The position numbers and the translations under genes are program-made. A DNA stretch of 60,449 nt from a virus: the IMG/VR virus record IMGVR_UViG_3300037247_000601, positions 1 to 60,449 of that record. One strand, 5' to 3'. Positions 12,763 through 56,276 of this stretch are shown here, piece by piece; the stretch's first letter is position 1, and the number at the start of each line of letters is the position of its first letter. The notes under the pieces are model-generated. The model searched no databases. It saw nothing but the letters and a program-made list of their open reading frames with translations, and was not told the DNA's origin.

Positions 12763-15700
12763 TTATGGACTAGCGGCCTGCACGCCAATGCGGAGGCGAG
12801 GATGAACGCGGCTTTCCTTCTCGTACCGGTCCCGGCGCTCGATCAGATAGTCACGCATCTCGCGGTACTCGTCGCGCCGATGTTCCTTCTCTTCCTCGGA
12901 CAGGCTCTGATCGCGCCCGAGGTTCCGCATGGCTCTGGTGACTTTCTTGATCTCCCAGCGGTAGCGCGAGAGATTGCGGTCGCGCGTGTCCTCCGGGTTG
13001 ACCGGGTAGATGTTGACGCCTATCAGCCGGGCCGAGGCCTGCATGGCGGTCAACGGCGGGTCGCCGCGGTAGTTCGGCTGGTCGGTCAGCGAGCGATACA
13101 TGTGCCCGGTAAAGCCGATGTCGGTTAGCCAAGTGGGGGCCACGAGACGCCAGGAGTATTGCAGAATCTTGAGGGCCGCAACCCTCGGCGGGTCTGTCTC
13201 CCGGACAATACTATAGCCGGTGAAGGTGTCTACACCTGTCGTGGCAGCAATCGCAATTTGAGGCGCCGGGCCGCCGAAGATCCCAAAATCTTTGAACAAC
13301 TCCAACCCGCCCTCTCGAACTTCACCTGTTGCTATCTTGACCGCAGAGGTGAACGCTTGCTCGTGGGCACCCCACGGCATGAAGTAACTAAGGTCGATAG
13401 GCTGCCAGCGTCCCTTTTCATCCTGGACCGGCCAGAGCATCACAAGCCCCTTATCGTGCATCCACTCGGGCAGCGCCTTCAACAGCGCGTTGATATCGTC
13501 GTCGTCAACGTCATGCAGCGCCTTGACGAGAGCCTCGCCCAATATGTAAGGGATTGCGTAATACATGAACATGCGCCCGGGGTGCCGCGCCGCGCCGCGC
13601 AGGATAGCCGGCGCCGCTTTATAGAAGAACGTGACGAACGGGGCCCCAACTGGAGACCGGCGAGCCTGCTTGATCCAGTTTGGCACGGCCGAATAATCGA
13701 ACAGCGCCTCTTGCGCCTTGGCCACGGCCTCCTGATCGGTGGCGCCGCGACGCTTCTGGTCGATGATGACCGCCGTTTTCCCCCAGGTTTCGATGAACTG
13801 ATAGAAGTTTGCCGCACCTTCAACTTTGTCCGCCACCGTGAATGCTACTTTATAGGCAAACCCCAAGAATCCGTCTTGCTCCCCTTTGATGCGCAGAACG
13901 TCTTTATGCAAATCTTTAAGTTCGTTGGCCTTGAACGTGCTCGCGGGGATACCAGACCTGATAGCCAGGCGGTAGTTTTGACCGTTATTGCGAATCTCTC
14001 GGAGCGCCTGGCCCATGCGCAAGATTGGATTCCGCACGTCCCCGGCAATGTGCATCAGGACCATGCCGGAGAAAATATTGCGGTTTACCGTGGGCGGGTT
14101 GAGCGGCACCTTGGACAGTTTCCAAAACGCATGGGCAACCCGAGCAGCTTCAAGAGTCTTATCGAGGACCGTCTCCTCGCCGAGGATCGTTCTGCGCGAG
14201 CCCATGATGTCGTTCCAGATATCCTTGCGGACATAGGCGCCGCGGAGATCACCGTATCGTGGATTGTCGGGAAGCTTCTCGAATTCCTCTAAAATGGGGC
14301 GCGCAACCTGGTCCCGGAACAGTCCCAAACCCTGCTCGCCCAGAGCGTCCATCTCCTCGGCCAGCCCCCGCATCCCCTCGGCCTGGGCTTTGTCGACGTG
14401 CCGGGAGCGGTCGCGGAGCGCTTGGGCCTCGGCCTTGAGCCAGTAGGGCGTCACTTTCCGGCTGCTGCGGATACCCGGCGGTTTCCACTCGACGAAGCTA
14501 TTGGGCAACATCCACTCGGGATTGCCCGCTATGTCGTGGAGGAAGTCCTCCATGGCCATATCGTGGGCAGGAACCGACAGCGCGCGGCGTACCAGGAAGC
14601 CCGGGTCTTTGATCTCCCCCAGGTACAGGTCGCGATACTCGGCCGGCAGATCCTCGATGCGTTCTTTGAGATAGCCCCGCTCGCCAATCTTGAGGCCCGC
14701 GCCGCCCGACCCCGTGTGCCGTTCCAAGAGAAATTTCAGGTAGACCCTCGGCAGGTACTCGTCGGCGTATTTGTCAAAAGACTTCTGGGGCAGAATCCCG
14801 CGCCGGACCATTTCCTTGCCCAGCTTCTTGATCGTGGATTTGGCCGCCACCGCGGCGTTGCGCAGACTCACGGGCTTTTTCTTGAACACTCGCCCCTTCT
14901 GCCGGATCAGGACCGGACGGTGCGGGATCATGTTCGGGTTCGCGCCCTTGGTGGTCAGGTATTCTATGACCAATTTCGCCTCCACGTCCGTAGCGTTGTC
15001 GAACACCTGACCCAGATGATCGGCAATCCGCTCGGCGCGCCAGGCGCGACCCATGGCAGCACGATAAATTTCGAGATACTGTTCCGCGCCCTGCTTCCCC
15101 AGCGCCGTCATGTGGGGGTCTCGGAAGGGGTAGCCCTTGGTGGCCTTCTGTATCCAGCTCAGATCGGCGATATAATCGAGCGCGCGATCGGCAATCTTGC
15201 CCCATTGTTTCTGGGCCGCAGGGAGGTTGATGCCGGCGTGGAGTTCAATTTCACCCTGTCCACGCCCCGCCACGTCGAACAGCCCCTCGTCGGCGGGCTT
15301 CTGCGCGGCCTTGGCCTTCGCCCGGCCCTGCATCTTGCGCTCGGCAAGTTCGCGGTCGCTGATCTTTTCAGCGCCGGGGAGGACGGTCTGAGGGCCTTGG
15401 GGGGTGGGCTCGACGGTGGGTTGACGATCTTGCTCAGCAGCAAAGGCCTCGTCAAATTCCTCCGTCGCGGCCTTATATTCCTTAGCCGCTACCTCAAACT
15501 CGGAATCATCAGCCATCCGAGTTCGGTATAACTCGGCAATTTTCTTGTACTTTCGGGTAGCAATATCGTGTTTTTTGATGGCGGCCCGATATTCCGGGCT
15601 TAGTTCCGCGCCTTCTCCCGCTGCCGCACCACGATCTCCTGCATCTCGATCAGGTTGGGCAGCCCCTTCTTCGCCTCGGGCGAGAGGTTCGGCCTCTTCA

Positions 15701-18687
15701 ACATCTTCTTGAGATACTGGAGTCGCCTGCGCGAGCGTGCGAGATTCGAAGTCGGCTGTGTCATCGGGATAATCCTCGATGTAGCGGTCGATGTCATATT
15801 CTGCCCAACCGTCGTCAAAGTCACGCCCTTCCTGCTCGGCCCGAATCTCCATCTCCCGGGCCACCGCCAAGGAGAGGCCAGTGTCGTCCAGCCGGTCGAC
15901 CGCTTCCTGGGGGATGCCGAGCTCGAGCGCCTTATCGGTCGCCGAGGTGCGTTCTACCGCCGCCTCGTCCTCATCGCGCCGGGCTTCGGCCATATCGAGA
16001 TCGGCGGGGTGGTAGATTTTTTTGATCGCGTTTTCGCGGATCAGTTCCCCTACGGCGTGGTCGTAAGAGCCTTCCGGCAGCAATCCAAGCTGCTCGAAAT
16101 GCTCGCGGAACCAGTGCTGGGACTTGCCGTCCTTGCGGATCAGGCCACGGGTCAAATGCAGATCCTGCGCCCGCGTTTCATCGCTGGGCTGCAAGCCGCC
16201 TTGTTCTTTGATGATGGCCACGATATCGCGAGGCACAGTTTGGTTCGGCACCAGACCAGTCCTGGTCAACCACCCGGTCGAGCGAAGATGCCCCTGAAGA
16301 CGGATCGCCGCGTCTGGGCTGATCTTGAGTCTGCGGGCCAGCATGCCAGGCGTGACCTTACCCAACTTGCCCTCCTGGCGGCGCCAATTAATGAACGCTT
16401 TGCCGGGCTCGACAGAGAGTTGCCAGCTTCCATCCGGCTCCGCGGCCTCCTGGGGGCCCACAGGAGCCACTTCGACCTTAACTGGGTAGACCAGGTCCTG
16501 TGCGATAATCCCGCGTCTTCCTTGGTCCCGTCGCAACTGGCCTTCTTCTGTTAACTGGTCGGCTCTGCTGGCAATCTCCGTAGCCACCACCCTGTTGACA
16601 TATCTACCTTCGGATGTGACGAAGCCATCATCGGACTGGATTTCTTTTGCCTCGAAACCCGCCTCCCTGGCCCGCTCCATCGCTGCACTGTGGAACTCGC
16701 CAGTGAAAACTTCGCCCGAAAGTGTTCTGACGGCAGAAGCGACAATGGTCTCGCTGGGAGCCGCTGTGGTGGCGATCTCAGCCTCGGAAGGTGCCTGGGG
16801 CACCTTAAACGGCTCCGCGCGCACAGCGGGCCGCCCTGGCCCCGTGGGGACGGCCTCTGTCTCGCGTATGAGGTGGCCCTGGAACCGGGGCGCGGATGTT
16901 TCACGTGAAACATCCCCTGGTTCGGCCCGCTTTCTTACGGCCTCATCGACGAGCCGCTGATATTCCGCCTGATAGGCCGACGCTTCGCGTTCGCCGAAGT
17001 TCTGGCGTATGGCCTCAATTTTGGATTCGATCGACTTTGTGGCCATGCCGAACTGTTCGAAATCCTCCCGCGCCTTGTCGGTGATCTCCTGGCCGACGGC
17101 CTCGGCCCGGGCTTCCAAGACCTGTTCGGGGGTGATAACCTCCGGCCGTGCCTGAATGGGTTGTACAGTGGTGGCAATCTCTGGACCCAGTTCTACGGCG
17201 GTGGCTGTCGGAGCCGGCCGTGGCTGTGTTTCTGGTGCAGGCGGCTGTGGTTCTGGCGCTGCTGTACGGCCAAGCCGTTGTTCGATGTCTTCGATTGTCG
17301 GTGCTGGCTGTGCTTCTTCTGTGGCGGTTGTTTTCTCGTCCGCCCCCTTCTTTGAGCGCCGCACCCGAACGCCCATCATCCCTGCCAAGGTATTGAACAG
17401 CGCACCAACCGTGAAGCCGACCTCGCCAGCCTCGGCCGCGCCCTGGAACATCTCGCGCTCCGTATCGTAGAGACCCTGGGCTATCAGGTTCTCCGATACC
17501 GATTGGAACAGTTCCTGCACGCCCTCCTCGACACCGCCCTTGAGCGCGTTGATGAAGATGCGCTGGAATTGTCCGCCGGACGCCTTGTCGTAGCGGTCCA
17601 GCAACCGCGCGACCGGCAGTGCCTCCGAGGTGCCCACGAGACCCGCCATCTTGGCGGAAGTCATGGCAGTCTCAAAGGACGCCCCGCTCTGCACGGCGTC
17701 TCGGAAGGTCGCGGACCCGTTGACCAGCGCACCAGTTCCAGCGGTGACAAGTGTCGCCGGCATGCGCAGCACCCGCCCGGCAATGCCGGTGAGGAGGAAA
17801 GCGCCCGTCGAACCGACGCCTTTGCCCGCCTGGACGACGAAACGGCCCTCATGTTCCTTGGGAATGGGGAACGCTTCCTCGGTACTCTCGCGCAGTGTTA
17901 GTCCCCATTTGTAGGCCGGTTCCTCCGAGACGGGCCTGATTCCAGCCCCGATCTTATCCCGAAGACCCTCGCGGGTCGCCTCGTCCGCGCTCATGTACTG
18001 GATCAAGTCCGCTGTCTGGAACGGAAGTTTCCCGATATTCCTCAGACCCTCGCCACGATCGATGGCGTCGAATATCGACATGGTTTGCCGGAGCGCATTC
18101 TGTCTGGCTATGCCAACTGACTCGGGCAGGCCCGCCGCAGTGCCGGCCGCACCCTGAACCACACCGTAAAGCACACTGCGGGTGAGGCTCTGGGGCTCTG
18201 CCGCTTCCAACCGGCCCAGGATGCTGTCGAGGGTCAGAACCGTGCCCAGGCGCGCCATAATGCTGTTGAGCGTCGGCGCAATAGGCTCGACGGTCGTCTG
18301 TTGCGGCGCGGCCAGTCCCCCACCCAGATCGACCGGGGCAACCGCCGGCATCTCAGCAGCCATGGCCCCTCCCAGGTTGACCGGGACCGCGGCGGAGGCA
18401 GGAACGGGGACAGCTACCGGCGGTGGGGCAGCCTGGGCGACCTGGGTCGGCGCCGGGGTTCCCTGGAGCGCTCGCTCGAAAGCCGCCTTGCCGCCATACT
18501 TATCAAGCACGTTCTGCAAGGCATCGCGGTATTCCGCAGCCTGCGGCGTCACCCCCCGCATAGACAGGCCGCGCGGGTTGTCTGACGTGTAAATCGTTGG
18601 AGGCTTGAGCGCGATCAGGCGGTCGAGATCCTGTTGAGCAGCACCGTCCAAGCGGGCCTCGATACTAGCGAGAGTAACCGGCGGCAT
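12763..18687 (-). CDS. Giant internal virion / large polyvalent-type protein (1974 residues)
   Basis: This is the largest gene. The N-terminal 120 residues are followed by Ala/Pro/Val-rich linkers and a region with membrane-seeking helices (GSTGAFLLTGIAGRVLRMPA, then GGVEEGVQELFQSVSENLI, about residues 285-410). The middle is charged and modular, with Pro-rich linkers and coiled-coil segments. The last 450 residues (from about 1500, KLSKVPLNPPTVNRNIFSG) include FVTFFYKAAPAILRGAARHP and YYAIPYILGEALVKAL, which I recall from C-terminal domains of large polyvalent proteins and phage injection proteins. Together with the three genes upstream it likely forms the DNA-ejection machinery; an enzymatic activity cannot be named. 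The gene contains a consensus parS site at 16894-16915. It is coupled (ATGA) to the gene at 18687-19757. Confidence 0.75.
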   Translation of the reverse strand: MPPVTLASIEARLDGAAQQDLDRLIALKPPTIYTSDNPRGLSMRGVTPQAAEYRDALQNVLDKYGGKAAFERALQGTPAPTQVAQAAPPPVAVPVPASAAVPVNLGGAMAAEMPAVAPVDLGGGLAAPQQTTVEPIAPTLNSIMARLGTVLTLDSILGRLEAAEPQSLTRSVLYGVVQGAAGTAAGLPESVGIARQNALRQTMSIFDAIDRGEGLRNIGKLPFQTADLIQYMSADEATREGLRDKIGAGIRPVSEEPAYKWGLTLRESTEEAFPIPKEHEGRFVVQAGKGVGSTGAFLLTGIAGRVLRMPATLVTAGTGALVNGSATFRDAVQSGASFETAMTSAKMAGLVGTSEALPVARLLDRYDKASGGQFQRIFINALKGGVEEGVQELFQSVSENLIAQGLYDTEREMFQGAAEAGEVGFTVGALFNTLAGMMGVRVRRSKKGADEKTTATEEAQPAPTIEDIEQRLGRTAAPEPQPPAPETQPRPAPTATAVELGPEIATTVQPIQARPEVITPEQVLEARAEAVGQEITDKAREDFEQFGMATKSIESKIEAIRQNFGEREASAYQAEYQRLVDEAVRKRAEPGDVSRETSAPRFQGHLIRETEAVPTGPGRPAVRAEPFKVPQAPSEAEIATTAAPSETIVASAVRTLSGEVFTGEFHSAAMERAREAGFEAKEIQSDDGFVTSEGRYVNRVVATEIASRADQLTEEGQLRRDQGRRGIIAQDLVYPVKVEVAPVGPQEAAEPDGSWQLSVEPGKAFINWRRQEGKLGKVTPGMLARRLKISPDAAIRLQGHLRSTGWLTRTGLVPNQTVPRDIVAIIKEQGGLQPSDETRAQDLHLTRGLIRKDGKSQHWFREHFEQLGLLPEGSYDHAVGELIRENAIKKIYHPADLDMAEARRDEDEAAVERTSATDKALELGIPQEAVDRLDDTGLSLAVAREMEIRAEQEGRDFDDGWAEYDIDRYIEDYPDDTADFESRTLAQATPVSQEDVEEAEPLARGEEGAAQPDRDAGDRGAAAGEGAELSPEYRAAIKKHDIATRKYKKIAELYRTRMADDSEFEVAAKEYKAATEEFDEAFAAEQDRQPTVEPTPQGPQTVLPGAEKISDRELAERKMQGRAKAKAAQKPADEGLFDVAGRGQGEIELHAGINLPAAQKQWGKIADRALDYIADLSWIQKATKGYPFRDPHMTALGKQGAEQYLEIYRAAMGRAWRAERIADHLGQVFDNATDVEAKLVIEYLTTKGANPNMIPHRPVLIRQKGRVFKKKPVSLRNAAVAAKSTIKKLGKEMVRRGILPQKSFDKYADEYLPRVYLKFLLERHTGSGGAGLKIGERGYLKERIEDLPAEYRDLYLGEIKDPGFLVRRALSVPAHDMAMEDFLHDIAGNPEWMLPNSFVEWKPPGIRSSRKVTPYWLKAEAQALRDRSRHVDKAQAEGMRGLAEEMDALGEQGLGLFRDQVARPILEEFEKLPDNPRYGDLRGAYVRKDIWNDIMGSRRTILGEETVLDKTLEAARVAHAFWKLSKVPLNPPTVNRNIFSGMVLMHIAGDVRNPILRMGQALREIRNNGQNYRLAIRSGIPASTFKANELKDLHKDVLRIKGEQDGFLGFAYKVAFTVADKVEGAANFYQFIETWGKTAVIIDQKRRGATDQEAVAKAQEALFDYSAVPNWIKQARRSPVGAPFVTFFYKAAPAILRGAARHPGRMFMYYAIPYILGEALVKALHDVDDDDINALLKALPEWMHDKGLVMLWPVQDEKGRWQPIDLSYFMPWGAHEQAFTSAVKIATGEVREGGLELFKDFGIFGGPAPQIAIAATTGVDTFTGYSIVRETDPPRVAALKILQYSWRLVAPTWLTDIGFTGHMYRSLTDQPNYRGDPPLTAMQASARLIGVNIYPVNPEDTRDRNLSRYRWEIKKVTRAMRNLGRDQSLSEEEKEHRRDEYREMRDYLIERRDRYEKESRVHPRLRIGVQAASP
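16894..16915. promoter_or_regulatory. parS: Consensus parS (ParB-binding) site inside a coding gene
   Basis: The 16-base TGTTTCACGTGAAACA (16897-16912) is identical to the bacterial chromosomal parS consensus and sits in a perfect 22-base palindrome. In the reading frame of the giant protein it encodes VSRET (residues 593-597). Host ParB would be expected to bind it and could spread on the phage DNA. No parA or parB gene is seen in the phage. Confidence 0.85.
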
Positions 18688-19767: not shown

Positions 19768-20310
19768 CTAGTACCAGTTGTACGCGGTGCCGGAATATGG
19801 CTGGCTTTGCCATCCGCGAGTTCCGCCACCGTCCTCGTCATCGTCCCAGAAGGCATCGATCGCGCCCGCATAGCCCTGCATCAGAGCATTGCTCGAGCCG
19901 ATGTACCCCGAGGCCTGCGCCTGGCCGCCCGACATGATGGTCTGACTCAGTTGCCCCGAGGTGGCGCCGTACTGGCCGGCCGCGCTGGCGCCAAGTTGGC
20001 CGGTGTACTGCGTGGCCGTCTGGCCGATGCCCGCCATCGAGGCCAGGCGATTGGCATAGCTGTTGAATTCCGAGCTCGCCAGACCCTGGCCGTAGCTGGT
20101 CAACTCCCGCAACAGCCCGCCGGACATCAGCTTGCCCTTGGCAGCCGCCGAGCGTTCGAAGGCACGCGTGCCTTCATCCATGCGGAACTGGTAGCCGGGG
20201 GACTTGTAGAACGGAGAGTAATCCGGCGAGCCCCCACCGGCCTGCATCGCTGTGGCGATCTGGCCCCCGATATCGGCAATCTGGATGTCAAGTTCTTCGA
20301 TGCTTGGCAT
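19768..20310 (-). CDS. Ejection/DNA-transfer-like virion protein
   Basis: This 180-residue protein contains YKSPGYQFRMDEGTRAFERS, AAAKGKLMSGGLLRELTSYG and QGLASSEFNSYANRLASMAG, a recurrent set in phage internal or DNA-transfer proteins. The C-terminus is Gly/Ser/Gln-rich and ends in an acidic stretch (DDDEDGGG). Coupled start (TAATG) to the gene upstream. Probable role: ejected with the DNA. Confidence 0.7.
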   Translation of the reverse strand: MPSIEELDIQIADIGGQIATAMQAGGGSPDYSPFYKSPGYQFRMDEGTRAFERSAAAKGKLMSGGLLRELTSYGQGLASSEFNSYANRLASMAGIGQTATQYTGQLGASAAGQYGATSGQLSQTIMSGGQAQASGYIGSSNALMQGYAGAIDAFWDDDEDGGGTRGWQSQPYSGTAYNWY

Positions 20311-29247: not shown

Positions 29248-30483
29248 TTACGCGGTGCCGCTCACCCGGGTCGCCAATTCCGGATAAATCGCTTTCACGC
29301 CGTAGAGAATATCGCCGCGGATGATCTCGACATCGTTATCGATATCGTAATCCTTGACCAGCCGCACACTCAACCCGCGATGGGTCTCGCGCGCCTTCCA
29401 CTGGACAGAGTCCGGCATTTCGAGTGGCACGTTCACCAGAGCGAAGGCGTTCTTGTGGAACACCATGTTCTGGGGAGTGATTTCCGCCGCCGTGGTCGAC
29501 TTGTAGATGATCGTGGCATTGTTGGGCGCCGAGTTCGAGACAGTCTGATACGGACCCGAAGTGATGATCGGAGGCGAGATGGAGAGCGTCGTGTCGCTGG
29601 TCGTGGTGACGTTGGCCGTCACATCGGCCCGGAGAACGAACTCCTGCAGGAAATCCAGCGTCACCTTCGACACCGGATTGACCGCGAACACCGTATCGAT
29701 GGTGAACACATCGCCCTCGAAGAGGGAGTCAGCGGTGGTCCAACCGTCCGTCACGAGATCCATCTTGTAGGCGGTCAGCACGTTGGCATAGGTGGTGCTT
29801 TGAGCAGTGGTCACAAGCGGCGTGCCGTCCCCACCCGGGCCAGTGGTGTGACGGGCGACGTTCTGGTCCATGTAGGTTTCCAGATTGGCCACCCGGCCCA
29901 ACCGGGCCTGACGGTAGGCTTCCGCCTGTGGACTGGCAGGCTGGTCGGTGAGAGTGAGCCCCGCCAGGTTACCAATCATCGCCCAGGAATCGGCCGGAGC
30001 CAGAACGGCGTTGCGCTGATCCTGCGGAACCGCCATCTCGTCGAGCCGCTGGGGCGCCTTGGATAGATCGGCGAAGCTGTTGATGGTATTGGACGGGGTT
30101 CCGACCCAGTTCCAGATCTGCTTGTAGAGATCGAGCAGATCGGTATCGACCTTGTTCGCCAGCGCGATCATGGCCGGCTTGATGTAGCGATAAGCGTACT
30201 CCTCGATCGACAGCGTGAGGTCCTGAGTGGAGAAGTTCCAGGAGACGTGCTTGCGCTTGTCGATGGTGATGTTGGTCGATGCTTCCTCCACGTCCTGGTT
30301 GGTCCTGGTCGCACCGTCGGTAACGACGAACTTGACCGGCTTGCGGATCGAAACCGTCTCGCCGACCTTGACGAACTCCTTGCGGTAATCGCGATGAACG
30401 AGATTGCCCATCACGAGGTTGTTTTCGAGCTGGAACAACGCCTCCTTGGCGATGATGCTCGGGGTAAGGATTCTCTGTACCAT
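29248..30483 (-). CDS. Major capsid protein, P22 coat (gp5) family
   Basis: This 411-residue protein matches the P22-type coat: N-terminal SIIAKEALFQLENNLVMGNL and DYRKEFVKVGETVSIRKPV, then LTLSIEEYAYRYIKPAMIAL and a C-terminal LPLEMPDSVQ-like segment (VPLEMPDSVQWKARETHRGL, SVRLVKDYDIDNDVEIIRGD). The usual length for the family is about 410-430. It follows the scaffold gene directly, the normal order. Strong ribosome binding is not obvious; the ATG touches the scaffold stop. Confidence 0.93.
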   Translation of the reverse strand: MVQRILTPSIIAKEALFQLENNLVMGNLVHRDYRKEFVKVGETVSIRKPVKFVVTDGATRTNQDVEEASTNITIDKRKHVSWNFSTQDLTLSIEEYAYRYIKPAMIALANKVDTDLLDLYKQIWNWVGTPSNTINSFADLSKAPQRLDEMAVPQDQRNAVLAPADSWAMIGNLAGLTLTDQPASPQAEAYRQARLGRVANLETYMDQNVARHTTGPGGDGTPLVTTAQSTTYANVLTAYKMDLVTDGWTTADSLFEGDVFTIDTVFAVNPVSKVTLDFLQEFVLRADVTANVTTTSDTTLSISPPIITSGPYQTVSNSAPNNATIIYKSTTAAEITPQNMVFHKNAFALVNVPLEMPDSVQWKARETHRGLSVRLVKDYDIDNDVEIIRGDILYGVKAIYPELATRVSGTA

Positions 30484-32873: not shown

Positions 32874-33062
32874 TCACTGAATTGTGGCTGGCTGCTGACC
32901 CATCCACACCACATTGAGACCTTGAGCTTCGGCGATCCGGTGACGGCCTGCGACCAAGACCCGCGCGCGCGCCGTGTCGTCGTCACTCAGCGCGGCCTCG
33001 ATGGCATCGAGCAGCGAGCACATGTCAACCGCCCAAGCCTCGTAGTTCACTTCGCCGGTCAT
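32874..33062 (-). CDS. Small helical protein after portal
   Basis: This 62-residue acidic protein (EAWAVDMCSLLDAIEAALSD, then RVLVAGRHRIAEAQGLNVVW) is coupled to the portal gene by an ATGA overlap. It resembles short helical proteins commonly encoded after portal genes; the function is unknown. Confidence 0.65.
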   Translation of the reverse strand: MTGEVNYEAWAVDMCSLLDAIEAALSDDDTARARVLVAGRHRIAEAQGLNVVWMGQQPATIQ

Positions 33063-35221
33063 TGCACCGGCACCGAGCCGGCCCCATTGGTAGGATACGC
33101 TTGCGGGGGCTGCGGAGCAACTGGCCCAGTCGGTGCCACGGTGGGCATCTGCACCGGTGAATCGGGCGCCAGAATATCCCGCAACACCGCCTCGACCTGG
33201 CCCTCGATCATGGACTTGAACTGGCCGTTCGCCATCGCGAACTCGAACGCCTTCTCCAGGTTCTCCAGCTTGATCTGCTCGGTCTCTTCCTCGGTCTTGG
33301 CCACCTCGGCGGCCATCTCGATGATTTTCGCATTGGCCTCCGTGTCCTTGCGGGCCTGATCGCGCTGGTCGGTCTCGATCTTGGCCTTGGCCTCGATCTC
33401 CTCGGGCGAAGGCGGCGGCGGCGCGGGCTCCTCCTCGCCATCCTTCAACTCCACCATGCCCGGCGGCAGCATCTTGCGGAACCGCTCCGCTAGATCGTCC
33501 GAGCCCGGGAAATCGAGGGCTTTCACGATGATGTCCATCGCCACCTTGCCCGCTTCGGGCACGGCCTTCACCAGTTGCAACAGCGAATCAGCCGCCTCGG
33601 TCCGTTTGGTAGAATAGGACGGCCCGGTGGTGACCGCAACGTCGTAGACCCCGACCGCTAGATCGTTGACCCGGTGCTCCTGGCCGGCGTCGTCCACCAC
33701 CGTCTGGTTGATGCGCGCCGCCTCGGTGGTCCCGTCCTCGTTCAGCAAGCGGATGACTCGATCGCTGTCGTAGACCTTGGGGATGATCCGCACCAACTGC
33801 CGCCCGCAAGCCACGATGGCCAGTTTCAGATTGTCGCTGTAATTGAAAGTCGAGATGTCCGATTGACGCTGCCGGGCGATTATTGCCTTGCCACTGGTCT
33901 CTGGTAGGCTGGGCGCGCGGGCGGCATCAAAATAAACCCCCGTGGTGGCCTTCATGTCGTCCTGGGCTATCAGGATTTCCTGGTGCATCGACGGGCTGCC
34001 CAGGGCTGGCTGGACACGCTGGGGCGGCAGGCCGCTGTTATTATCGTCCGGCGCGTAGGGCAAATACGGCATGTTGCGCGTGTTGGCCTGGTTCCACAGG
34101 GCCTCGACGCCGGCGATATTCTTCGGGGTAACCATGAAGGGCGATTTGGGCTGTAGCGCGATCTGCTCGGTCTGCGCTGCGCGCCAGTAATTGTACATCC
34201 GCTGCGGGTCTTTGGCGTGGCGAATGATGCCGTTCCTGATGGTGCGCCGGCCGATGTGGGTCTCATCGCCGATCACTGGAATGATCGGAATATCGGTGCC
34301 GATCCACTCGAACGGCCCTTCCAGCACCTCGTGGCCGTTGATGATGCGCATCTCGACCTTGTTGCGCTCCACCACTCGGCGCCTCTTGATGTAATGCCCC
34401 TGCCCAGTCTCAGCATCCTGCACCACCCCATCGCCCTCGTTCATCTCGGTGATGTCGATCGTCCGCCCGTCATCCAGTAGCGCCAGCGTCCGCTTCTCCA
34501 GAGTCTTGGTCCAATATTCGGCGACCCGGATTTCCTCGCCCTGCCGCCAATCGCCCAGATGGGTCGAGTCGGCGTCCATGAAGTCGAAGCCGACCAGGGC
34601 CGATTTCGGATAGCGCGCCTTGTAGGTCTCCAAGCCCATTGCCTCCTCGTAGAAGCAATACATCGCATCCGAACGGTCGAGTTCCACCGCCTGCGGATCC
34701 CAGGTCACCGCGTAGGGGTCGACGATGCGCTTGATGCGGATCACCTGGTCGAATGCCTGCTCGTGAGAATACTCGGTCGTGATCCGAAAGTGGCCGATAC
34801 CGCACTGCGCCGCACCCTCGGCCGCGGTCACATAGGCGATAACAGCGTTCGACTGATGCTCTATATGCCGGATCGTCCCGGTGAAGATATCGGCAATTTC
34901 ATCGTCACTGGTATCGTCGCCCGGTAGAACTTTGATGGCCGGCCGGTTCTGGCGAATTTCGTTGACGATCTGCTTCACGAAGGCCGGCATCCGGTTGATG
35001 GTCAGTATCGGGCGGCCATCCTCGTTGCGCTCGCGACGAATTTCCTCCGGCCATTGGTCGCCAGCCATGAATTCCAGGTCTTCGATACCGGCGTCCCGGT
35101 TGTCCTGCTCATGGTCGACCGCGATCTGATAGCGGTCGCGGGCGATGCGCATGAGTTCGGCGTCCTTGCCGCCGATGTCCTCGACATCGGGCAGTTTGTC
35201 CTCGACGCGCTCAACCATCAT
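33059..35221 (-). CDS. Portal protein, P22 gp1 family
   Basis: This 720-residue protein has the P22-type portal features: FMAGDQWPEEIRRERNEDGR, PILTINRMPAFVKQIVNEIR, then HIEHQSNAVIAYVTAAEGAA and the DPYAVTWDPQAVELDRSDAM segment. The clip/stem region lies around residues 330-480. The last 120 residues are a charged helical tail with PPPPSPEEIEAK, and end in a Pro/Gln-rich stretch. Length is normal for this family (about 720). Twelve copies should form the DNA entry ring. Confidence 0.93.
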   Translation of the reverse strand: MMVERVEDKLPDVEDIGGKDAELMRIARDRYQIAVDHEQDNRDAGIEDLEFMAGDQWPEEIRRERNEDGRPILTINRMPAFVKQIVNEIRQNRPAIKVLPGDDTSDDEIADIFTGTIRHIEHQSNAVIAYVTAAEGAAQCGIGHFRITTEYSHEQAFDQVIRIKRIVDPYAVTWDPQAVELDRSDAMYCFYEEAMGLETYKARYPKSALVGFDFMDADSTHLGDWRQGEEIRVAEYWTKTLEKRTLALLDDGRTIDITEMNEGDGVVQDAETGQGHYIKRRRVVERNKVEMRIINGHEVLEGPFEWIGTDIPIIPVIGDETHIGRRTIRNGIIRHAKDPQRMYNYWRAAQTEQIALQPKSPFMVTPKNIAGVEALWNQANTRNMPYLPYAPDDNNSGLPPQRVQPALGSPSMHQEILIAQDDMKATTGVYFDAARAPSLPETSGKAIIARQRQSDISTFNYSDNLKLAIVACGRQLVRIIPKVYDSDRVIRLLNEDGTTEAARINQTVVDDAGQEHRVNDLAVGVYDVAVTTGPSYSTKRTEAADSLLQLVKAVPEAGKVAMDIIVKALDFPGSDDLAERFRKMLPPGMVELKDGEEEPAPPPPSPEEIEAKAKIETDQRDQARKDTEANAKIIEMAAEVAKTEEETEQIKLENLEKAFEFAMANGQFKSMIEGQVEAVLRDILAPDSPVQMPTVAPTGPVAPQPPQAYPTNGAGSVPVQ

Positions 35222-35605: not shown

Positions 35606-35842
35606 CTACGCCCCCAACTTTCCAAAGGGAACAATTACGTCAAAAGATTTGGCGGTCCAAGTTATACGCAAGGCGCCCGGCAATAATTTCAGACACGCAA
35701 GCAAACCATGCCGGTAAATTCGAGACCGAGGGCGTTGCACAATACGCCAGAGCCAAAAACCAACTGCCTCCGCCCAAGGCCAAACGCCTTCGCGGCCAAA
35801 GATTGGTTGGTGATTGCGCCGCATCCGTTCAACTCCACTCAT
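35606..35842 (-). CDS. Small basic protein after large terminase
   Basis: This 78-residue protein is Trp/Arg/Leu-rich (WPWAEAVGFWLWRIVQRPRS, RIYRHGLLACLKLLPGALRI), with a possible amphipathic or membrane-associating helix. It overlaps the terminase stop by ATGA. Function unknown. Confidence 0.6.
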   Translation of the reverse strand: MSGVERMRRNHQPIFGREGVWPWAEAVGFWLWRIVQRPRSRIYRHGLLACLKLLPGALRITWTAKSFDVIVPFGKLGA

Positions 35843-37428
35843 CACGCCCCCATCCAGCTACCGGCCGCGCCTCGGCGGCGCCCGCCCAGCGGGTTGATCT
35901 TCGACATGTCGATGGTCAGCGGCGCCTTGGCGGCGACCAGCACTTCCTCGTCGCAGATGCGCGACAGCGCATCAAGCGCGTCCTTGTGGGCGCCGACCGG
36001 GAAATGCTCGATCTCCTCGTCCAGGAACTGCCGCACCACATCGACCGTCTCACCTTCCCAATTCGGCCGCATGAGCCGTTCCAGCAGATAGATCCGGTGT
36101 GCCTCGAAAATCGGCTGCAAGCGCATGATCCGGTCATCCTTGTGGAGCTGGCGGCCCAAGGGAGTCACGTCGAAATGGTAGGTTTCCTCTTCCTGACGCC
36201 ATTCGATCGCCTCGATGTCGGCCTGGAGCCCGTATTGCTCGTAGCCGACGAACATCGGCTTGTAGGCGCGGTGCAGTTCGATCACCTTGGCGACCTTCTC
36301 GGTCAGGTTCATCTTGTCGAAGATCAGATCGATCATGTACCAGTTGTCGTCGGCGCCGTAGCCCAGCACCCACATGGCCGTGAAATCGCTCTCGCGCTTT
36401 TTCTTCGAGGCCGGGTCGACCAGGATGATGCGGCACAGGTTGTCGTGGTTGCCGCCCTTCCAGAACCGGATATCCTCGCGCTTGAAACCCAGCGTCGCAT
36501 CGGCGCGCGGGTCTAGCAGCATCTGGCAGTTGTAGACGTAGGAGCCCATGTCCCGACGCTTCCGCGCGTTCTCCTCGGCGCTCATCAACACCGGCTCGCC
36601 GTCGACCGTGCCGTCCACCGTGGCCGGGTATCGGCGCTCCTTGGCGGCCTTGCGGCGCAGGATTTCCTCGTAGGGGTCAGCCTGGTGATATTTCGAGCCC
36701 TTGTAGCGGATCACGCCACCGCGCCGGCCAAGGTTCAGCGAGGTCGCCCAGGCGTTGGTGCATTTCTTGATCTTCTCGGAGGCATCGCGCCCCGATACGG
36801 TGTCGAGCGTCACCAGATCGTCGTAGTCCAGCACATGAAAATGCTTCGATGTCGGCTGCGATTCCACCACACCCCACGCCTCGACCGTGGCTTCATTGGG
36901 GTTGGTCTTGCGTTTGACCACGATCCCGTTATCGAGCGACCAGCGCGAGGCTTGGTTCTTCGGGTCACGCCACAGCACCTCGGGATAGAGGAACTTGAGA
37001 TCGTCGTTGGTTTCCAGTTCCAGCTTGATCTGGCGCAAGAATCCCTTGGCGATGTCGCGGGTGTGGCTGAAAATCCCGATGGTGATCTCGGGGTTTTTCA
37101 GGATCGTCTGGATGTTTAGCGCGAAGGTCGAAATGGTCGATTTGTAGTGCTCGCGCGACCACAGATCGAGATAGCCGTCCGGCGCATTCTGAACTTCCCG
37201 GGCCCGGTCGAAAATCCACGGATGCAGCGCGTCCTTCCGTTTCAGGATGTAGACCAGCAAATAGAACAGATCGTTGCGGCCCAGGAAGGCGCGCGCCTCG
37301 TGGTAGCCGTCCTCCCCACCCGCCTCGAACGCCTGGTTCAGGTGGCGCGTGTACCAGCCGATGCGGTCGCGCAAGGCGTCGGCCGAAGGGGCGGGGGGAA
37401 CCCGACGATCAATGGAGGACTGGGACAC
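35842..37428 (-). CDS. terL: Terminase large subunit
   Basis: This 528-residue packaging motor has an ATPase domain with a non-canonical P-loop WSREHYKSTIS (residues 90-100), Walker B in FHVLDYDDLV (196-204) and a nuclease domain beginning RIILVDPASKKKRESDFTAM (Asp337, Asp347) and ending with VGAHKDALDALSR. The P-loop has SREHYKST in place of the usual G-x4-GKS/T, a variant also seen in other phage terminases. It should cut and pump DNA into the procapsid through the portal encoded nearby. Confidence 0.93.
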   Translation of the reverse strand: MSQSSIDRRVPPAPSADALRDRIGWYTRHLNQAFEAGGEDGYHEARAFLGRNDLFYLLVYILKRKDALHPWIFDRAREVQNAPDGYLDLWSREHYKSTISTFALNIQTILKNPEITIGIFSHTRDIAKGFLRQIKLELETNDDLKFLYPEVLWRDPKNQASRWSLDNGIVVKRKTNPNEATVEAWGVVESQPTSKHFHVLDYDDLVTLDTVSGRDASEKIKKCTNAWATSLNLGRRGGVIRYKGSKYHQADPYEEILRRKAAKERRYPATVDGTVDGEPVLMSAEENARKRRDMGSYVYNCQMLLDPRADATLGFKREDIRFWKGGNHDNLCRIILVDPASKKKRESDFTAMWVLGYGADDNWYMIDLIFDKMNLTEKVAKVIELHRAYKPMFVGYEQYGLQADIEAIEWRQEEETYHFDVTPLGRQLHKDDRIMRLQPIFEAHRIYLLERLMRPNWEGETVDVVRQFLDEEIEHFPVGAHKDALDALSRICDEEVLVAAKAPLTIDMSKINPLGGRRRGAAGSWMGA

Positions 37429-48696: not shown

Positions 48697-51330
48697 TCAA
48701 AAAACGATCTCCTCCTGGTTCTCCTGTTCCGCCGCGTCCCCCTCGTGAAACCGCATGCGCGGCCCGTCGAACTCCACCGTCACGCTGCCCGTGGGCCCGT
48801 TGCGCTGCTTGGCCACGATGATCTCCGCTTTGCTGCGCTTGTCTTCCAGGCGCGTGTACCAAGTGCGCTCGCGTCTTTCGAACGTCTCGTCTGTCTCATT
48901 GCCGCGGCGCTGGGGCTTCTCATTTCGCAGATAGTATTCCTCGCGGTACAGGAACATCACCACGTCGGCGTCCTGCTCGATCGAGCCCGATTCGCGCAAG
49001 TCCGGCAGGCGCGGCCGGTGATCGTCGCGACTGTCAACTTGGCGCGAAAGCTGGCTGAGCAGGATCACCGGCACGCGCAACTCCTTGGCGATACCAGTCT
49101 TGATCTGCCGCGTCATCTGACCGATCTCTTCGTAACGCTGCATGCCATGCGGCCGGCGGTCGTCGCCCATCAGTTGCAGATAGTCGATCACCACCAGATC
49201 GAGCCCGCCGGCCCGCTGCATGCGCCGCGCCCGCGCCCGGATACCCGCTACCGAAATGGTCGAGGTATCGTCGATATGAAGCGGGAGTGCTGCCAGCGCC
49301 TCGCGGCACTGCACCACTTGGTCCATCTCGGCCTCGCTCAGCCAGCCGTTGTTGATGTTTTTGGAATCGATTCCGGTGATCCGGCTGATCTCGCGCTGGA
49401 TCACGTCCTCGGCGGTCATCTCCAACGAGAAGAAGGCGGGCCGCTGGCCAGATCGCGCGGCATTGAAGGCGATTCCCTCGGCGGCCGCGGTGTTGTGAGT
49501 CACGACGAAATCATCGGTTATATATTGGCGAGACGGGTGTGTGACGGAAATACAAGTTGCGTCAGCGATCCTGGTTGGAACAATAGAAAGAATGGTTGGC
49601 TTTCTTGTGCGGGAAACAGGACAACCCGCTCTCTCTCGTTTTCGTCCGAGGGTAAAAAGCTCATCTTTCGGCAGAGAACAAATGTTCACAACCCAGGAGG
49701 GGCGCCGCTTGAGAATTCCTTTGCTGGTGCGGTAGTGGGTGGTTTTAGCCCTCTTGGTTACCCACCCGCCTAGAGACCGAGCAAGGTCGACAACTTGACC
49801 AGCGAGTCGCTCGCTACTGCTGTAAAACCGAACTGTGCCGTGTGTCTCAATAGAGCCATCAGTATCCAGCAACCCTCGAAGTAAGGCCAAACGATCTGCG
49901 CGCGGAGCCGTTAAATAAATCCCCGGGATGAATTTTTCTGTAGACAGCAAATTCCAAATTCCAAGTTTCTCCAATTTTGAAACGAGTTGATTTGGTTGCG
50001 ACCCGCTACGCCGCATAGGAGTGCCATGGTCACGGTAGGCAACACGACGCGCCCATTTTGCGCGGCCACAACAAAGAGCAGAACACCACTTTCTACTTCT
50101 ATGGCCGCCAGATATTTCAACACCACAATATTCACAGTTTTTGGCTTTTACGCCGACTATCCGATAAGTAATATCTCCAACCGTCTTAGATAGAATGAGG
50201 CCATCGCCGACCGCGGCAGCAACACCGTGAACTATTTCTTCATCCACCGACGTAATGTTCGCCGTTCCACCATGGAAAGCGCCATCCCCAAGGAGAACCC
50301 CCAAGAGCCACGAGTCGATCGGCAAAGATTGCTCATGGCCAAAATCCCCATTGAAAGTGTCGATCCGAAGACGTTTTTCGTAACTCGGACGCTTCAGGAG
50401 TCCTTCGAGATCGTTCGTAGAAAGCACCCGCGCTTCTCTCCATCCCCGATTATTGACACGCCATAAATGCTCGCCGCAGCACTCCGCAAAGCGACCGTCC
50501 GAGAAAGTCACTCTATAAATTTGCTTCTGTCCTTGCGGGAATACGCCGCTGACCAAGGAACGGCGACCATCCACCGAAGCGAGTTCGTCACCAGGTTTCA
50601 GATCCCGCATTGTGGCCCAACCCACCGGGGTAAGAATTTTCGCGTCAAGAGGCTGCGCTTTCCCCATGGAGGTCGCGCCCGCCAGCACGTAGAGCTTGCC
50701 CGGCTTCAACCCGCCGATCAGTTTATCCAGGCTTTTCAAGCCGGTGCACAAGCCCGCCGCGCCGGTCCCTTGCGCCTTGTAGGCGTCTTGAATCTGCTCC
50801 AGCGCGCCCTCGACCCGGTTTCCCAGCGGCTCCAACCCGCCGCGGTCGCCTGCACCCAAGATGGCGTCCAGGCCGCCCTGCGCTTCCTCGATAATGGTCT
50901 CGGCTGGGCGATCCAGGTCAACGTCATGCAGCGCCTCGATGGTGTCCTGGGCGCCCAGGATGGCCTCGCGCCGGCGGTACAGGTCCACCAGGGTGGCGGC
51001 GTACTGGCCCGCCTGCTGCGTGCCCGCGGCCGCCAAGGTGAGCTCGACCAGATATTGCGGGCCGGTCATGCCGGGGGCGGGCTCGTCGGCCTCGAACAGC
51101 GCCCGCAGGCTGAGGGCCGAGGCGGTCTGGCCGCGCTCGATCAACTTGGCCATGGCCTCGTAGATGCGGCCGTGGAGCGCGTCGTCAAAGTGCTCGGGCT
51201 TGAGCGCGTCGGCCACTTGATCGTAGGCCGCGTTGTCGGCCAGCAGGATACCGAGTAGCGCCTGTTCGATCTCGGAATTCGCCGGCGGCGGCCGGGGCGC
51301 GGGGTCGTCGATCGTGAAGGGATCGGTCAT
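48697..51330 (-). CDS. dnaB: Replicative DnaB-type helicase interrupted by an intein
   Basis: The 877-residue precursor contains a 488-residue helicase and a 389-residue intein (225-613). N-terminal residues 15-110 are the DnaB primase-binding domain (EIEQALLGILLADNAAYDQV). The RecA core has P-loop GATSMGK|T split by the intein after Lys224, then SLEMTAEDVIQREISRITG, DLVVIDYLQLMGD (Walker B) and VILLSQLSRQVDSRDDHRPR. The last 40 residues are acidic. It unwinds DNA at the phage fork and should be loaded by the O-like protein downstream. Splicing is needed to restore the P-loop. Confidence 0.95.
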   Translation of the reverse strand: MTDPFTIDDPAPRPPPANSEIEQALLGILLADNAAYDQVADALKPEHFDDALHGRIYEAMAKLIERGQTASALSLRALFEADEPAPGMTGPQYLVELTLAAAGTQQAGQYAATLVDLYRRREAILGAQDTIEALHDVDLDRPAETIIEEAQGGLDAILGAGDRGGLEPLGNRVEGALEQIQDAYKAQGTGAAGLCTGLKSLDKLIGGLKPGKLYVLAGATSMGKAQPLDAKILTPVGWATMRDLKPGDELASVDGRRSLVSGVFPQGQKQIYRVTFSDGRFAECCGEHLWRVNNRGWREARVLSTNDLEGLLKRPSYEKRLRIDTFNGDFGHEQSLPIDSWLLGVLLGDGAFHGGTANITSVDEEIVHGVAAAVGDGLILSKTVGDITYRIVGVKAKNCEYCGVEISGGHRSRKWCSALCCGRAKWARRVAYRDHGTPMRRSGSQPNQLVSKLEKLGIWNLLSTEKFIPGIYLTAPRADRLALLRGLLDTDGSIETHGTVRFYSSSERLAGQVVDLARSLGGWVTKRAKTTHYRTSKGILKRRPSWVVNICSLPKDELFTLGRKRERAGCPVSRTRKPTILSIVPTRIADATCISVTHPSRQYITDDFVVTHNTAAAEGIAFNAARSGQRPAFFSLEMTAEDVIQREISRITGIDSKNINNGWLSEAEMDQVVQCREALAALPLHIDDTSTISVAGIRARARRMQRAGGLDLVVIDYLQLMGDDRRPHGMQRYEEIGQMTRQIKTGIAKELRVPVILLSQLSRQVDSRDDHRPRLPDLRESGSIEQDADVVMFLYREEYYLRNEKPQRRGNETDETFERRERTWYTRLEDKRSKAEIIVAKQRNGPTGSVTVEFDGPRMRFHEGDAAEQENQEEIVF
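49492..50658 (-). mobile_element. Class 3-type intein with LAGLIDADG endonuclease
   Basis: Intein residues 225-613 of the precursor begin AQPLDAKILTPVGWATMRDL and end ITDDFVVTHN before Thr614. Position 1 is Ala instead of Cys/Ser, block B is CGEHLW with Trp two residues after the His, block F has Cys593 (TCISV), and the +1 residue is Thr: this Trp-Cys-Thr set is the class 3 signature. Endonuclease motifs are LLGVLLGDGAF (342-352) and LLRGLLDTDGSI (483-494). Between them is a zinc knuckle (Cys399, Cys402, Cys416, Cys420). The DNA is lower in GC than the flanking helicase. Confidence 0.92.
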
Positions 51331-51584
51331 GGCGCGATCCGCCCTTCATAGATGCCCCAAGCACGCGCCTTGATGTAGTCCAGTGCCGAGAATGACCAGC
51401 GGCCCACGATCGCTCGGTTGATCATGCCAAAATTAATCCAAGCCTGATCGTGGTCGCGCTGCCGCAAGCAGAACGCATAGGTGAGCGCCACGCCGTTACG
51501 GGTCATCTTCGGCATGGCGATCTCTTCCAGAATGACCCTCTGGGGGTTGACCAGTTTCACACGCAGGCTGGTTTCTTGGCTCAT
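51327..51584 (-). CDS. Small protein upstream of the helicase
   Basis: This 85-residue protein is coupled to the helicase by ATGA. It reads LRVKLVNPQRVILEEIAMPK and MTRNGVALTYAFCLRQRDHD then AWINFGMINRAIVGRWSFSA. Mixed alpha/beta; function unknown, maybe replication-linked. Confidence 0.65.
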   Translation of the reverse strand: MSQETSLRVKLVNPQRVILEEIAMPKMTRNGVALTYAFCLRQRDHDQAWINFGMINRAIVGRWSFSALDYIKARAWGIYEGRIAP

Positions 51585-52027
51585 GGTGCCTCGCTGGGCT
51601 GGCGCCTGTGGCAGCGCGCGTCGTGAACCGGGCAATAGCTCGATCCAGGCTGGACCGCTGCAGGGCAGCGCGGAGCGTCGGCGTAGAGCGTGAAGTCGCG
51701 GCCTTTTTCGCCTTCGATGAACTGGCAGGCGCGGCGCGGGGGTGCGACTGGCTCCGGTTGCGCAATCGGCTCAGAAATCGGGTTTGGTTGCGGCCGCGGT
51801 TCCGCAACTGTCTCTGTCGTGCGGCGCAGCGCCACCTTGCGCGTCGGCGCTACCTGGCCGACGCGAATAATTGGCCACGGCCGGGATTCCAGGCGCATCC
51901 GATGGACCTTGCCCGCCACGGCGTTCTTGGACACGCCCAGCGCCTTACCGATCAGGCTGGCCGAGGTGCCGGCGTCCCACAGTTCGGTCAGCCGCGCGAC
52001 GCGCTCTTGGGTCCAGGTCTGGGTCAT
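51581..52027 (-). CDS. gcrA: GcrA-family cell-cycle regulator
   Basis: This 148-residue protein has the GcrA N-terminal HTH WTQERVARLTELWDAGTSAS and SLIGKALGVSKNAVAGKVHR and the C-terminal sigma-factor-binding module CQFIEG...CP...GSSYCPVHDARC. GcrA proteins occur in Alphaproteobacteria, where they join sigma70 and activate promoters with methylated GANTC. Here it sits beside the methyltransferase, helicase and small zinc proteins. The Pro-rich linker (about 75-100) is normal for the family. The start at 52027 (ATGA overlap) is preferred over 52048. Confidence 0.9.
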   Translation of the reverse strand: MTQTWTQERVARLTELWDAGTSASLIGKALGVSKNAVAGKVHRMRLESRPWPIIRVGQVAPTRKVALRRTTETVAEPRPQPNPISEPIAQPEPVAPPRRACQFIEGEKGRDFTLYADAPRCPAAVQPGSSYCPVHDARCHRRQPSEAP

Positions 52028-52254
52028 GTCGAGGGCGCCCGTCGCCATTTGGTGTAGGTCATGGTCTCAGGGTAGAGCCACCGTACCTCGCGGATCAGCC
52101 CGAACCATCGCTTCCGTGTTCTGATCTCCCCCTTGAGGTGTCGGCCCTTGCCTGGGCACGGCAGGTACATGGTCGGGTCAAAATCGTCGTCGCTCGCTTC
52201 GTCTCTGATCCCAACTAAATCGCTGCACTCAGAACAGATAATCGAGACGGTCAT
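52024..52254 (-). CDS. Small zinc-binding protein
   Basis: This 76-residue protein begins MTVSIICSECSDLVGIRDEA with a CSEC knuckle and a third Cys in MYLPCPGKGRH. The rest is basic (RTRKRWFGLIREVRWLYPET). It lies between GcrA and the DNA methyltransferase and overlaps both. Function unknown. Confidence 0.6.
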   Translation of the reverse strand: MTVSIICSECSDLVGIRDEASDDDFDPTMYLPCPGKGRHLKGEIRTRKRWFGLIREVRWLYPETMTYTKWRRAPST

Positions 52255-52313: not shown

Positions 52314-53897
52314 CTATGATGGTGCTCCCTCGAACAATGGCGTATCGGCGCCCTCGACGTGTGCTAGGCGCCGCCGGATGTCGGCGACGAACCGCGCCTC
52401 TTTCTCGATCACGATGGCGTCGAAACCTTCGCGTAAGCAGGCCATGGCGGTGGTGCCCGATCCGGCGAAGGGGTCGAGAACCAGTCCGCCCGGCGGCGTG
52501 ATAAGGCGGCACAGATAGGCCATTAGGTCGACGGGTTTCACCGTGGGGTGCTTGGAGCCCAGGCGGTCGGCCTTGTCCGCCTTGGCGGTGTAGAAAAATC
52601 GTGCGGCGGTGCCTTGGTCTCCATACGCCTCAAAACCACCGGCTCGGTCCGGCATGTCGCCATAGACGTTGGCGAAGGGTGAGGACGGCTCGGCTCCAGT
52701 CAGTGAGCCACCTGGGCCGGTTCGGGGGAACGCCTGCAGCACCTCCTCGGAGCCGTCGTGAATGCAATTTGCCGGCCATCTTCCCGCCGGTGAGCCCCCG
52801 CGCGGCCCAGGCGTTGCCGCAAAGTCAGTTGAGCCTTTTTCGGCGTAACGACGATCAGCCGACGCCTCGCCGTCACGGCCGTTGCCCTGATAGGCGTTCG
52901 GCCGATAGCCGTGCTCATGGTTTGCTTGGTTAAATCTGTCGGTCCCCGGCGGCGTCGTGTTTTTGAAAGTCCCCACCCTGCACCCGTCGATGTTCAGCGC
53001 CCCCGTGCCATGCTCCAGCACGTTCGCCGCGACGGTCTTTTCCGACAGCGGCTTGCGGGCTAGGCAGATGATCTCGGTGGCGGGCTTCAGCGCTGTGCCC
53101 CAGCCTTCCCATTGCTTGGCGGCATCGGTCGCCGGGGCGGTTTGGTCCCCACCGACAGAGCCGAGACGTTCGCCGCCGAGGCCACCCATGTCCCCGTCAT
53201 GCTGGCCCGTTATTTCGCGCTCGGTTTCTACTCGTTCAATCAGCGCCAACCAATCATCTGCCAGCGATAGAAGTGGTTGCAATATTCGCCATTGTGCCCG
53301 CGTCGGGACGTTGTGACCCCTTGCCCAGTTAACGGAAGCTCCACCGTGATTGTGATTGTCGTAGAAATGTCCCGCGCCACATATTGCCGCATGGGTAAGT
53401 CCGGTTTTATGGCGCTGTTGTTCGTAGTGTTTTGCAAACTCGCTGAACATTCCTGCCCGCGGTGCCCCCCTATCTATCCCCTTGCTCACGTCATGTGATT
53501 TCGGAAAACCGGTGCCGTAGTGCCACATGATGGTGTCGCGAATCTCAAACCCCGCGTCCTCGATCGCGCAAGCTAGGCGGTGGTAGGTACGCGTGCCGCC
53601 AAATACCAGCATGTGCCCGCCGGGCTTGAGCAGTTCGAACGCCAGCCGCCAGGTCTCGGGCCGGAACGCAATATCGCCGCCGTCCCAAGTTTGGCCCATA
53701 AAGCCAGCCGCAGCCCGGCCGTAAACGCCCGTCGCGCCGTCGCTCTTGACCGGCGCGCTGCCGTCCTTGCCGAAGCGCTTCACGATGCTGACCAAATGAT
53801 AGGGTGGATCGCAACAGACCGAGTCGACCTGGACGCCTTCCTCATGGAGTCGCGGCATCACTTCCAGGCAGTCGCCGTGTTCGACCCGCACGCTCAT
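52314..53897 (-). CDS. DNA N4/N6-methyltransferase
   Basis: This 527-residue enzyme has DPPY (CCDPPYHLVS, residues 28-37) and the SAM-binding motif DPFAGSGTTAMACL (about 477-490) in the order DPPY first, FxGxG last, as in beta-type N6A/N4C methyltransferases. KHPTVKPVDLMAYLCRLITP precedes motif I. A central insertion (about 150-330) holds low-complexity and His/Asn-rich parts. The target site cannot be told. Together with the C5 enzyme it may protect phage DNA or act with GcrA. Confidence 0.88.
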   Translation of the reverse strand: MSVRVEHGDCLEVMPRLHEEGVQVDSVCCDPPYHLVSIVKRFGKDGSAPVKSDGATGVYGRAAAGFMGQTWDGGDIAFRPETWRLAFELLKPGGHMLVFGGTRTYHRLACAIEDAGFEIRDTIMWHYGTGFPKSHDVSKGIDRGAPRAGMFSEFAKHYEQQRHKTGLTHAAICGAGHFYDNHNHGGASVNWARGHNVPTRAQWRILQPLLSLADDWLALIERVETEREITGQHDGDMGGLGGERLGSVGGDQTAPATDAAKQWEGWGTALKPATEIICLARKPLSEKTVAANVLEHGTGALNIDGCRVGTFKNTTPPGTDRFNQANHEHGYRPNAYQGNGRDGEASADRRYAEKGSTDFAATPGPRGGSPAGRWPANCIHDGSEEVLQAFPRTGPGGSLTGAEPSSPFANVYGDMPDRAGGFEAYGDQGTAARFFYTAKADKADRLGSKHPTVKPVDLMAYLCRLITPPGGLVLDPFAGSGTTAMACLREGFDAIVIEKEARFVADIRRRLAHVEGADTPLFEGAPS

Positions 53898-55824: not shown

Positions 55825-55902
55825 TCAGCCTACCTCAGGGAAATCGGTAGGGAAACCACGGCCCCTACGCTGGCACGGCTCATAGAGAAGGATTGCTGTC
55901 AT
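55825..55902 (-). CDS. Very small peptide sharing GRGFPTDFPEV
   Basis: This 25-residue frame (MTAILLYEPCQRRGRGFPTD then FPEVG) is coupled to the gene before it by ATGA. Its end is coded by a 34-base repeat found again in the gene at 56722-56931. It looks like a truncated duplicate of part of that gene. Confidence 0.45.
   Translation of the reverse strand: MTAILLYEPCQRRGRGFPTDFPEVG
55830..55863. repeat. 34-base direct repeat, copy 1
   Basis: Exact duplicate of 56775-56808. On the minus strand it encodes GRGFPTDFPEV in the short peptide at 55825-55902. Confidence 0.9.
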
Positions 55903-56276
55903 GGGGCGCTCCGCCCAGGCACCGGGTCGCCCATCAGGGCCGCCGTCACGTTGCCGCGCACGGACGCCGGCAGTCGGTCAATCTCGGTCGCGGCCCGCGG
56001 GTCGTCCTCGAAGCAGCAGCCGGCAGGCAGCTGTTCACTCGCCGCCCTTTTGTTCGCGCCTAGCCGCCCTAGCCCCCTGGTGCGGCGCGGCAGGCCCAGT
56101 ATGGACGCGCGCACCGTCACCGCGCTGGACGTGCGGCCCAATTCCTTGGCGATATCGTCGATCGGCAAGCCCCCGGTCCACATGAGGCACAGGCGGTCGA
56201 GATCTTCCTCGGTCCATTTGAGCGGCCTTCTGCCGTACAGGCCCAGGGCCGGACGGGCGTTGAGCGGGCACATCAT
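55899..56276 (-). CDS. GcrA/Myb-like DNA-binding protein
   Basis: This 125-residue protein has WTEEDLDRLCLMWTGGLPID followed by DIAKELGRTSSAVTVRASIL, a Myb/SANT-like HTH very like the N-terminus of GcrA (WTxExxxxLxxLW...G.S...IA..LG.S..AV..K). The sigma-binding C-terminus of GcrA is absent. It may modulate transcription of phage or host genes. The start at 56276 overlaps the preceding stop. Confidence 0.65.
   Translation of the reverse strand: MMCPLNARPALGLYGRRPLKWTEEDLDRLCLMWTGGLPIDDIAKELGRTSSAVTVRASILGLPRRTRGLGRLGANKRAASEQLPAGCCFEDDPRAATEIDRLPASVRGNVTAALMGDPVPGRSAP

Follow-up and report, generated by a model that had tools for sequence, protein, structure and literature searches.

A host-type parS palindrome in a giant gene of a podovirus as a putative loading site for host ParB

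Bacillus phage phi29, in a report attributed to Meijer et al. 2005 (EMBO J), is said to carry parS sites that are used together with the host protein Spo0J. The podovirus described here resembles phi29 in displaying host-type parS on a genome devoid of its own ParB, whereas phi29, with its four sites, infects a sporulating host and is believed to enter the spore, and the present genome holds a single perfect palindrome and has a host that is very likely an alphaproteobacterium unable to sporulate. The chromosomal ParABS centromeres of Caulobacter, Pseudomonas and Bacillus have the same class of 16-bp palindrome, sometimes located within genes; nevertheless, the copy considered here is phage-borne, is not accompanied by parAB and has no link to the host oriC.

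Phage and plasmid ParABS systems, including P1 and the extrachromosomal mycobacterial prophages, in which ParABS is phage-encoded (PMC7157519), likewise endow a phage genome with a centromere site but comprise their own ParA, their own ParB and a cognate site, whereas neither gene was found here and the site is of the host type. The Arthrobacter phages Ranunculus, BruhMoment, Beagle and MellowYellow share with the present phage an in-frame stretch of codons, GAT-GTT-TCA-CGT-GAA-AC(A/G), read as DVSRET within a virion gene, in their case that of the capsid protease; on the other hand, these phages and their hosts are unrelated to those discussed here, and their genes display one to three sites each.

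Phage genome and probable host

The window, meaning the whole stretch of 60,449 nucleotides that was analysed (IMG/VR record IMGVR_UViG_3300037247_000601), is bounded by an exact 127-bp terminal repeat, with copies at 1-127 and 60323-60449 (plus strand). The record itself states no completeness, and the repeat indicates that it is probably a complete circularised genome. The minus strand encodes (i) a P22-like portal protein (33059-35221; Pfam P22_portal, E 2.3e-176), (ii) the major head protein (29248-30483; PHROG 283, E 2.1e-89), and (iii) the terminase large subunit (35842-37428; PHROG 38, E 5.2e-52; Pfam Terminase_6C), and the other families matched in the genome include scaffold, head-closure protein, RecT, RusA, DnaB helicase and methyltransferases. 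The phage is a podovirus with a P22-type portal, and no integrase family was found in the ORFs scanned by profile. Contamination of the contig with host DNA was ruled out by the portal, terminase and capsid genes together with the terminal repeat.

GcrA is a cell-cycle regulator of Alphaproteobacteria, bacteria that do not form endospores. Two GcrA homologues are encoded on the minus strand, one at 51581-52048 (Pfam PF07750, E 6.5e-16) and a second at 55899-56276 (Pfam PF07750, E 6e-7, over the cut-off), and these constitute the best evidence on the host, which, judged from gene content, is very likely an alphaproteobacterium, a class with canonical parS and ParB. Elsewhere on the same strand, the DnaB helicase gene (48697-51330) contains an internal LAGLIDADG endonuclease domain, probably an intein, and the region 52314-53897 encodes an N6/N4 methyltransferase similar to DpnA and CcrM (E 2e-15). 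The GANTC motif occurs 129 times in the window, compared with about 216 occurrences expected from base composition.

The lack of phage parA and parB put forward in the first-pass annotation was upheld: the HMM search found no ParB_N domain in the phage genome, the ORFs scanned by profile contain no member of the ParA and ParB families, and the reading frames spanning the genome junction, inspected by eye, show no ParA or ParB. Because the terminal repeat points to a complete, circularised assembly, this absence holds genome-wide. A ParB of the phage's own was rejected as the binder of the site, given a genome without ParB_N, and neither of the ParA and ParB genes that would characterise a P1-like system was found.

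The palindrome and the gene that carries it

The parS consensus TGTTTCACGTGAAACA is present as an exact 16-mer at 16897-16912, enclosed in the perfect 22-bp palindrome GGATGTTTCACGTGAAACATCC at 16894-16915, with neither feature assigned to a strand; the base pair just outside is mismatched and ends the palindrome at 22 bp. The site comprises the 16-bp palindrome, the CACGTG core and the GTTTC/GAAAC arms of a chromosomal-type parS, and is found without the nearby oriC and parAB that a chromosomal parS has on its own replicon, the phage genome having no ParB_N or ParA families. It is, as in phi29, a host-type parS on a ParB-less phage genome, the class of the host being deduced from GcrA. A sequence search thus bears out both the exact chromosomal consensus and the perfect 22-base palindrome inside a giant gene that had been claimed from the letters alone, and the earlier chance expectation of about 1e-5 in 60 kb agrees with the 7.1e-6 copies of TGTTTCACGTGAAACA per window obtained with a first-order Markov model of the window sequence. 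The window contains one exact copy, the runners-up at 7521 and 45003 having three mismatches each, and a perfect palindrome of at least 22 bp, whatever its sequence, is expected 0.035 times per window. The second-longest palindrome of the window, GAAGGCACGCGTGCCTTC, is a perfect 18-bp one at 20158-20175. A structured RNA at the site was also considered and dropped, the Rfam search at the palindrome having matched none.

The ORF that carries the site is a giant one of 1974 aa (12763-18687, minus strand), in which parS occupies codons 592-597, read in frame as GAT GTT TCA CGT GAA ACA, that is, DVSRET, in the context EPG-DVSRET-SAPR. Under the phage's own codon usage, the probability that DVSRET is spelled as the 16-mer is 3.1e-5, and across 27 genes there are, besides DVSRET, zero peptide positions able to spell it. 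The giant protein shows no family at curated cut-offs in the profile search, and its position beside head and tail genes suggests a virion gene. Its relatives, including MW202615 (25%) and seven further records (25-36%), are alignable from about residue 1160 onward, with just weak short matches upstream; the site therefore falls in a variable linker, outside the only part conserved among relatives. No close relative of the giant protein was found among the viral contigs, genome contigs and phages searched, and the P0001 query against whole records of portal relatives gave no match apart from MW202615. A parS within two mismatches is absent from 29 distant virus records, related by the P22 portal or by the giant protein, and from MW202615, which makes the site particular to the phage's own lineage rather than common to the wider group.

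Prevalence of parS in other phages, its host matching and its conservation

The exact parS 16-mer is present in at least 120 IMG/VR contigs, compared with 11 contigs for a dinucleotide-matched control palindrome in the whole collection. One asymmetric 18-bp version of parS alone occurs in at least 120 contigs, and it is carried by 13 of the first 120 contigs with exact parS; the IMG/VR total is therefore probably above 1,000, which would make the control palindrome not just at least 11 times but probably about 100 times rarer than parS. Misfiled host DNA may account for part of the IMG/VR parS count. Among 270 parS sites on IMG/VR contigs, 41% are not within an ORF of at least 100 aa, versus 17% of random positions. 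Some of the IMG/VR contigs display five exact parS copies within about 1 kb.

The isolate phages offer a comparable picture. Two 30-base parS queries match 386 and 390 records, which fall into about 35 name groups with Listeria, Microbacterium, Arthrobacter, Gordonia, Bacillus and Pseudomonas phages at the head, versus control palindromes that match 1 record, 65 records (63 of them Synechococcus) and 12 records (10 of them Lactococcus, with imperfect matches), corresponding to one to three lineages per control. INPHARED records are not independent of one another and some of the Listeria records resemble unsorted contigs, so that the fair unit of comparison is the lineage and not the record. 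The control found in the 63 Synechococcus phage records is TGTTGCACGTGCAACA; those listed are all S-RIM2, probably a clonal chance occurrence. Of 20 fetched phage records, 19 have 1 to 6 sites within two mismatches, the exception being MW202615, which was chosen for its giant protein, and a reversed control pattern gives 0 sites in all 20. By HMM search, ParB_N is absent from 55 of 66 records, nearly all of them parS-bearing phages, and ParB-like folds are found in the other 11 (6 over the family cut-off); regular expressions, a poorer ParB test than the HMM search, detected no ParB or ParA motifs in 120 IMG/VR loci. Canonical parS is strongly enriched across phages that mostly do not encode ParB, and this general pattern outweighs the single site in interest.

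The variant of the site carried by phages, judged from the sequences compared, follows that of the host. The site of Pseudomonas phage UAVern is TGTTCCACGTGGAACA, the sequence of parS2/parS3 in P. aeruginosa (PMC4368675), and phages of Pseudomonas come first when this variant serves as the query, with Mycobacterium, Escherichia and Klebsiella phages also matched. The four sites of phi29 are of the Bacillus type, TGTTTCACGTGGAACA, and lie mostly inside genes.

Positional and sequence conservation, observed at the sites of other phages rather than at the 16897-16912 copy, indicates that phage parS is under selection in several lineages, one of them alphaproteobacterial. Phages phi29 and BSP11 preserve parS at a common endolysin position despite an amino-acid change (NVSRGT/NVSRET), where 53% of the codons for identical amino acids agree. 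In Arthrobacter phages, the capsid-protease gene has the in-frame DVSRET parS at several distinct positions, where relatives are gapped or have other residues. The two parS sites of Ruegeria phages V10 and DSS3_MAL1 form islands, up to 97% identical, amid intergenic DNA whose identity is about 45-52%.

Further features of these phages concern the arrangement of the sites. Related Arthrobacter phages vary in the places of parS within the capsid-protease gene, as if it had been repeatedly gained; two Ruegeria phages contain repeated GCGCTTGAAGCGC-like palindromes flanking the parS sites; and phiPsa300 (385-400 and 99134-99149) and related Pseudomonas phages carry a host-type parS in the direct terminal repeat, which places it at both genome ends.

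Loading of host ParB and competing explanations

Host-matched parS is also present in many unrelated phages, and the phage described here therefore probably borrows the chromosome-segregation protein of its host. The reading that we favour, and hold to be reasonably likely, is that 16897-16912 constitutes a putative cis-acting loading site for host ParB, the likeliest use of which would be to position or partition phage DNA together with the nucleoid or the pole. At phage entry or replication, the palindrome would be bound by host ParB dimers, which would close as CTP-dependent clamps and slide over some 1-2 kb of neighbouring DNA, a stretch contained within the giant gene. In this way the phage genome would acquire a host partition complex and, to its presumed benefit, could be relocated, anchored or structured by host ParA, SMC and polar factors, with positioning or partition alongside the host nucleoid or pole as the likeliest outcome, comparable to the proposal for phi29 in sporulating Bacillus. 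In Caulobacter, ParB binds strong parS sites with low nM affinity, and its spreading from a single site reaches about 2 kb (PMC5815017). Two points count against a loading site: the phage has a single copy, compared with four in phi29 and two to six in many phages, and a coat of host ParB on a late gene could impede transcription of that gene.

The main rival explanation supposes that replicated phage parS competes for ParB, ParA and MipZ, so that chromosome segregation and division of the host stall. Such a takeover would make a phage protein unnecessary and would be in keeping with the two phage homologues of the GcrA family of cell-cycle regulators; moreover, a plasmid with two parS sites is lethal to Caulobacter, and ectopic parS perturbs MipZ and division (PMC5815017). 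Nevertheless, a lytic phage brings about death anyway, which leaves the gain unclear, and one site would compete only weakly before the late stage of infection, so that we consider a takeover unlikely. Somewhat less credit still is given to chance, by which DVSRET with the parS spelling would have arisen in an unconstrained linker and any ParB binding would bring no benefit: the single copy in a non-conserved linker and the distant relatives without the site are what chance would predict, but neither the 7e-6 copies expected per window nor the IMG/VR control palindrome, at least 11 times and probably about 100 times rarer, sits well with it.

A further explanation, the most doubtful of those weighed, places the function in local control, with ParB clamps on the giant gene acting as a transient barrier or as a condensing agent that holds back late transcription or packaging for as long as the clamps stay in place, or as SMC loaders. 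The stretch expected to be coated by ParB, given spreading of about 2 kb, does fall inside a giant late gene, and the sites of the Arthrobacter phages also lie in head genes; on the other hand, the sites of Ruegeria, Gordonia and Pseudomonas phages are intergenic or located in terminal repeats, and the share of IMG/VR sites outside ORFs of 100 aa or more (41%) exceeds that of random positions (17%).

Phage phi29 is reportedly already known to make use of host ParB by way of parS. What is new here is that one perfect site, and no more, lies within a gene of the virion cluster in a phage whose host probably does not sporulate. A literature search yielded accounts of phage parS limited to phage-encoded ParABS and none that describes a feature general to phages; this is weak evidence given that most subscription journals lay outside its coverage. 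The enrichment and host matching described above favour the view, which we find rather likely, that host-matched parS for borrowing host ParB is a widespread and repeatedly evolved phage strategy, extending over phages of Actinobacteria, Bacillota, Pseudomonas and Alphaproteobacteria and thus beyond phi29 and spores; loading of host ParB in the present phage would then represent an alphaproteobacterial case, with the site in a virion-cluster gene and no partition gene of its own. A predicted parS in a metagenomic contig is, by itself, no sign of chromosomal DNA. If the strategy is real, a 16-bp DNA tag alone would let many phages use or subvert bacterial chromosome segregation, and questions of how phage DNA is positioned, of pseudolysogeny and of what a stray parS costs in fitness would become testable by breaking one site.
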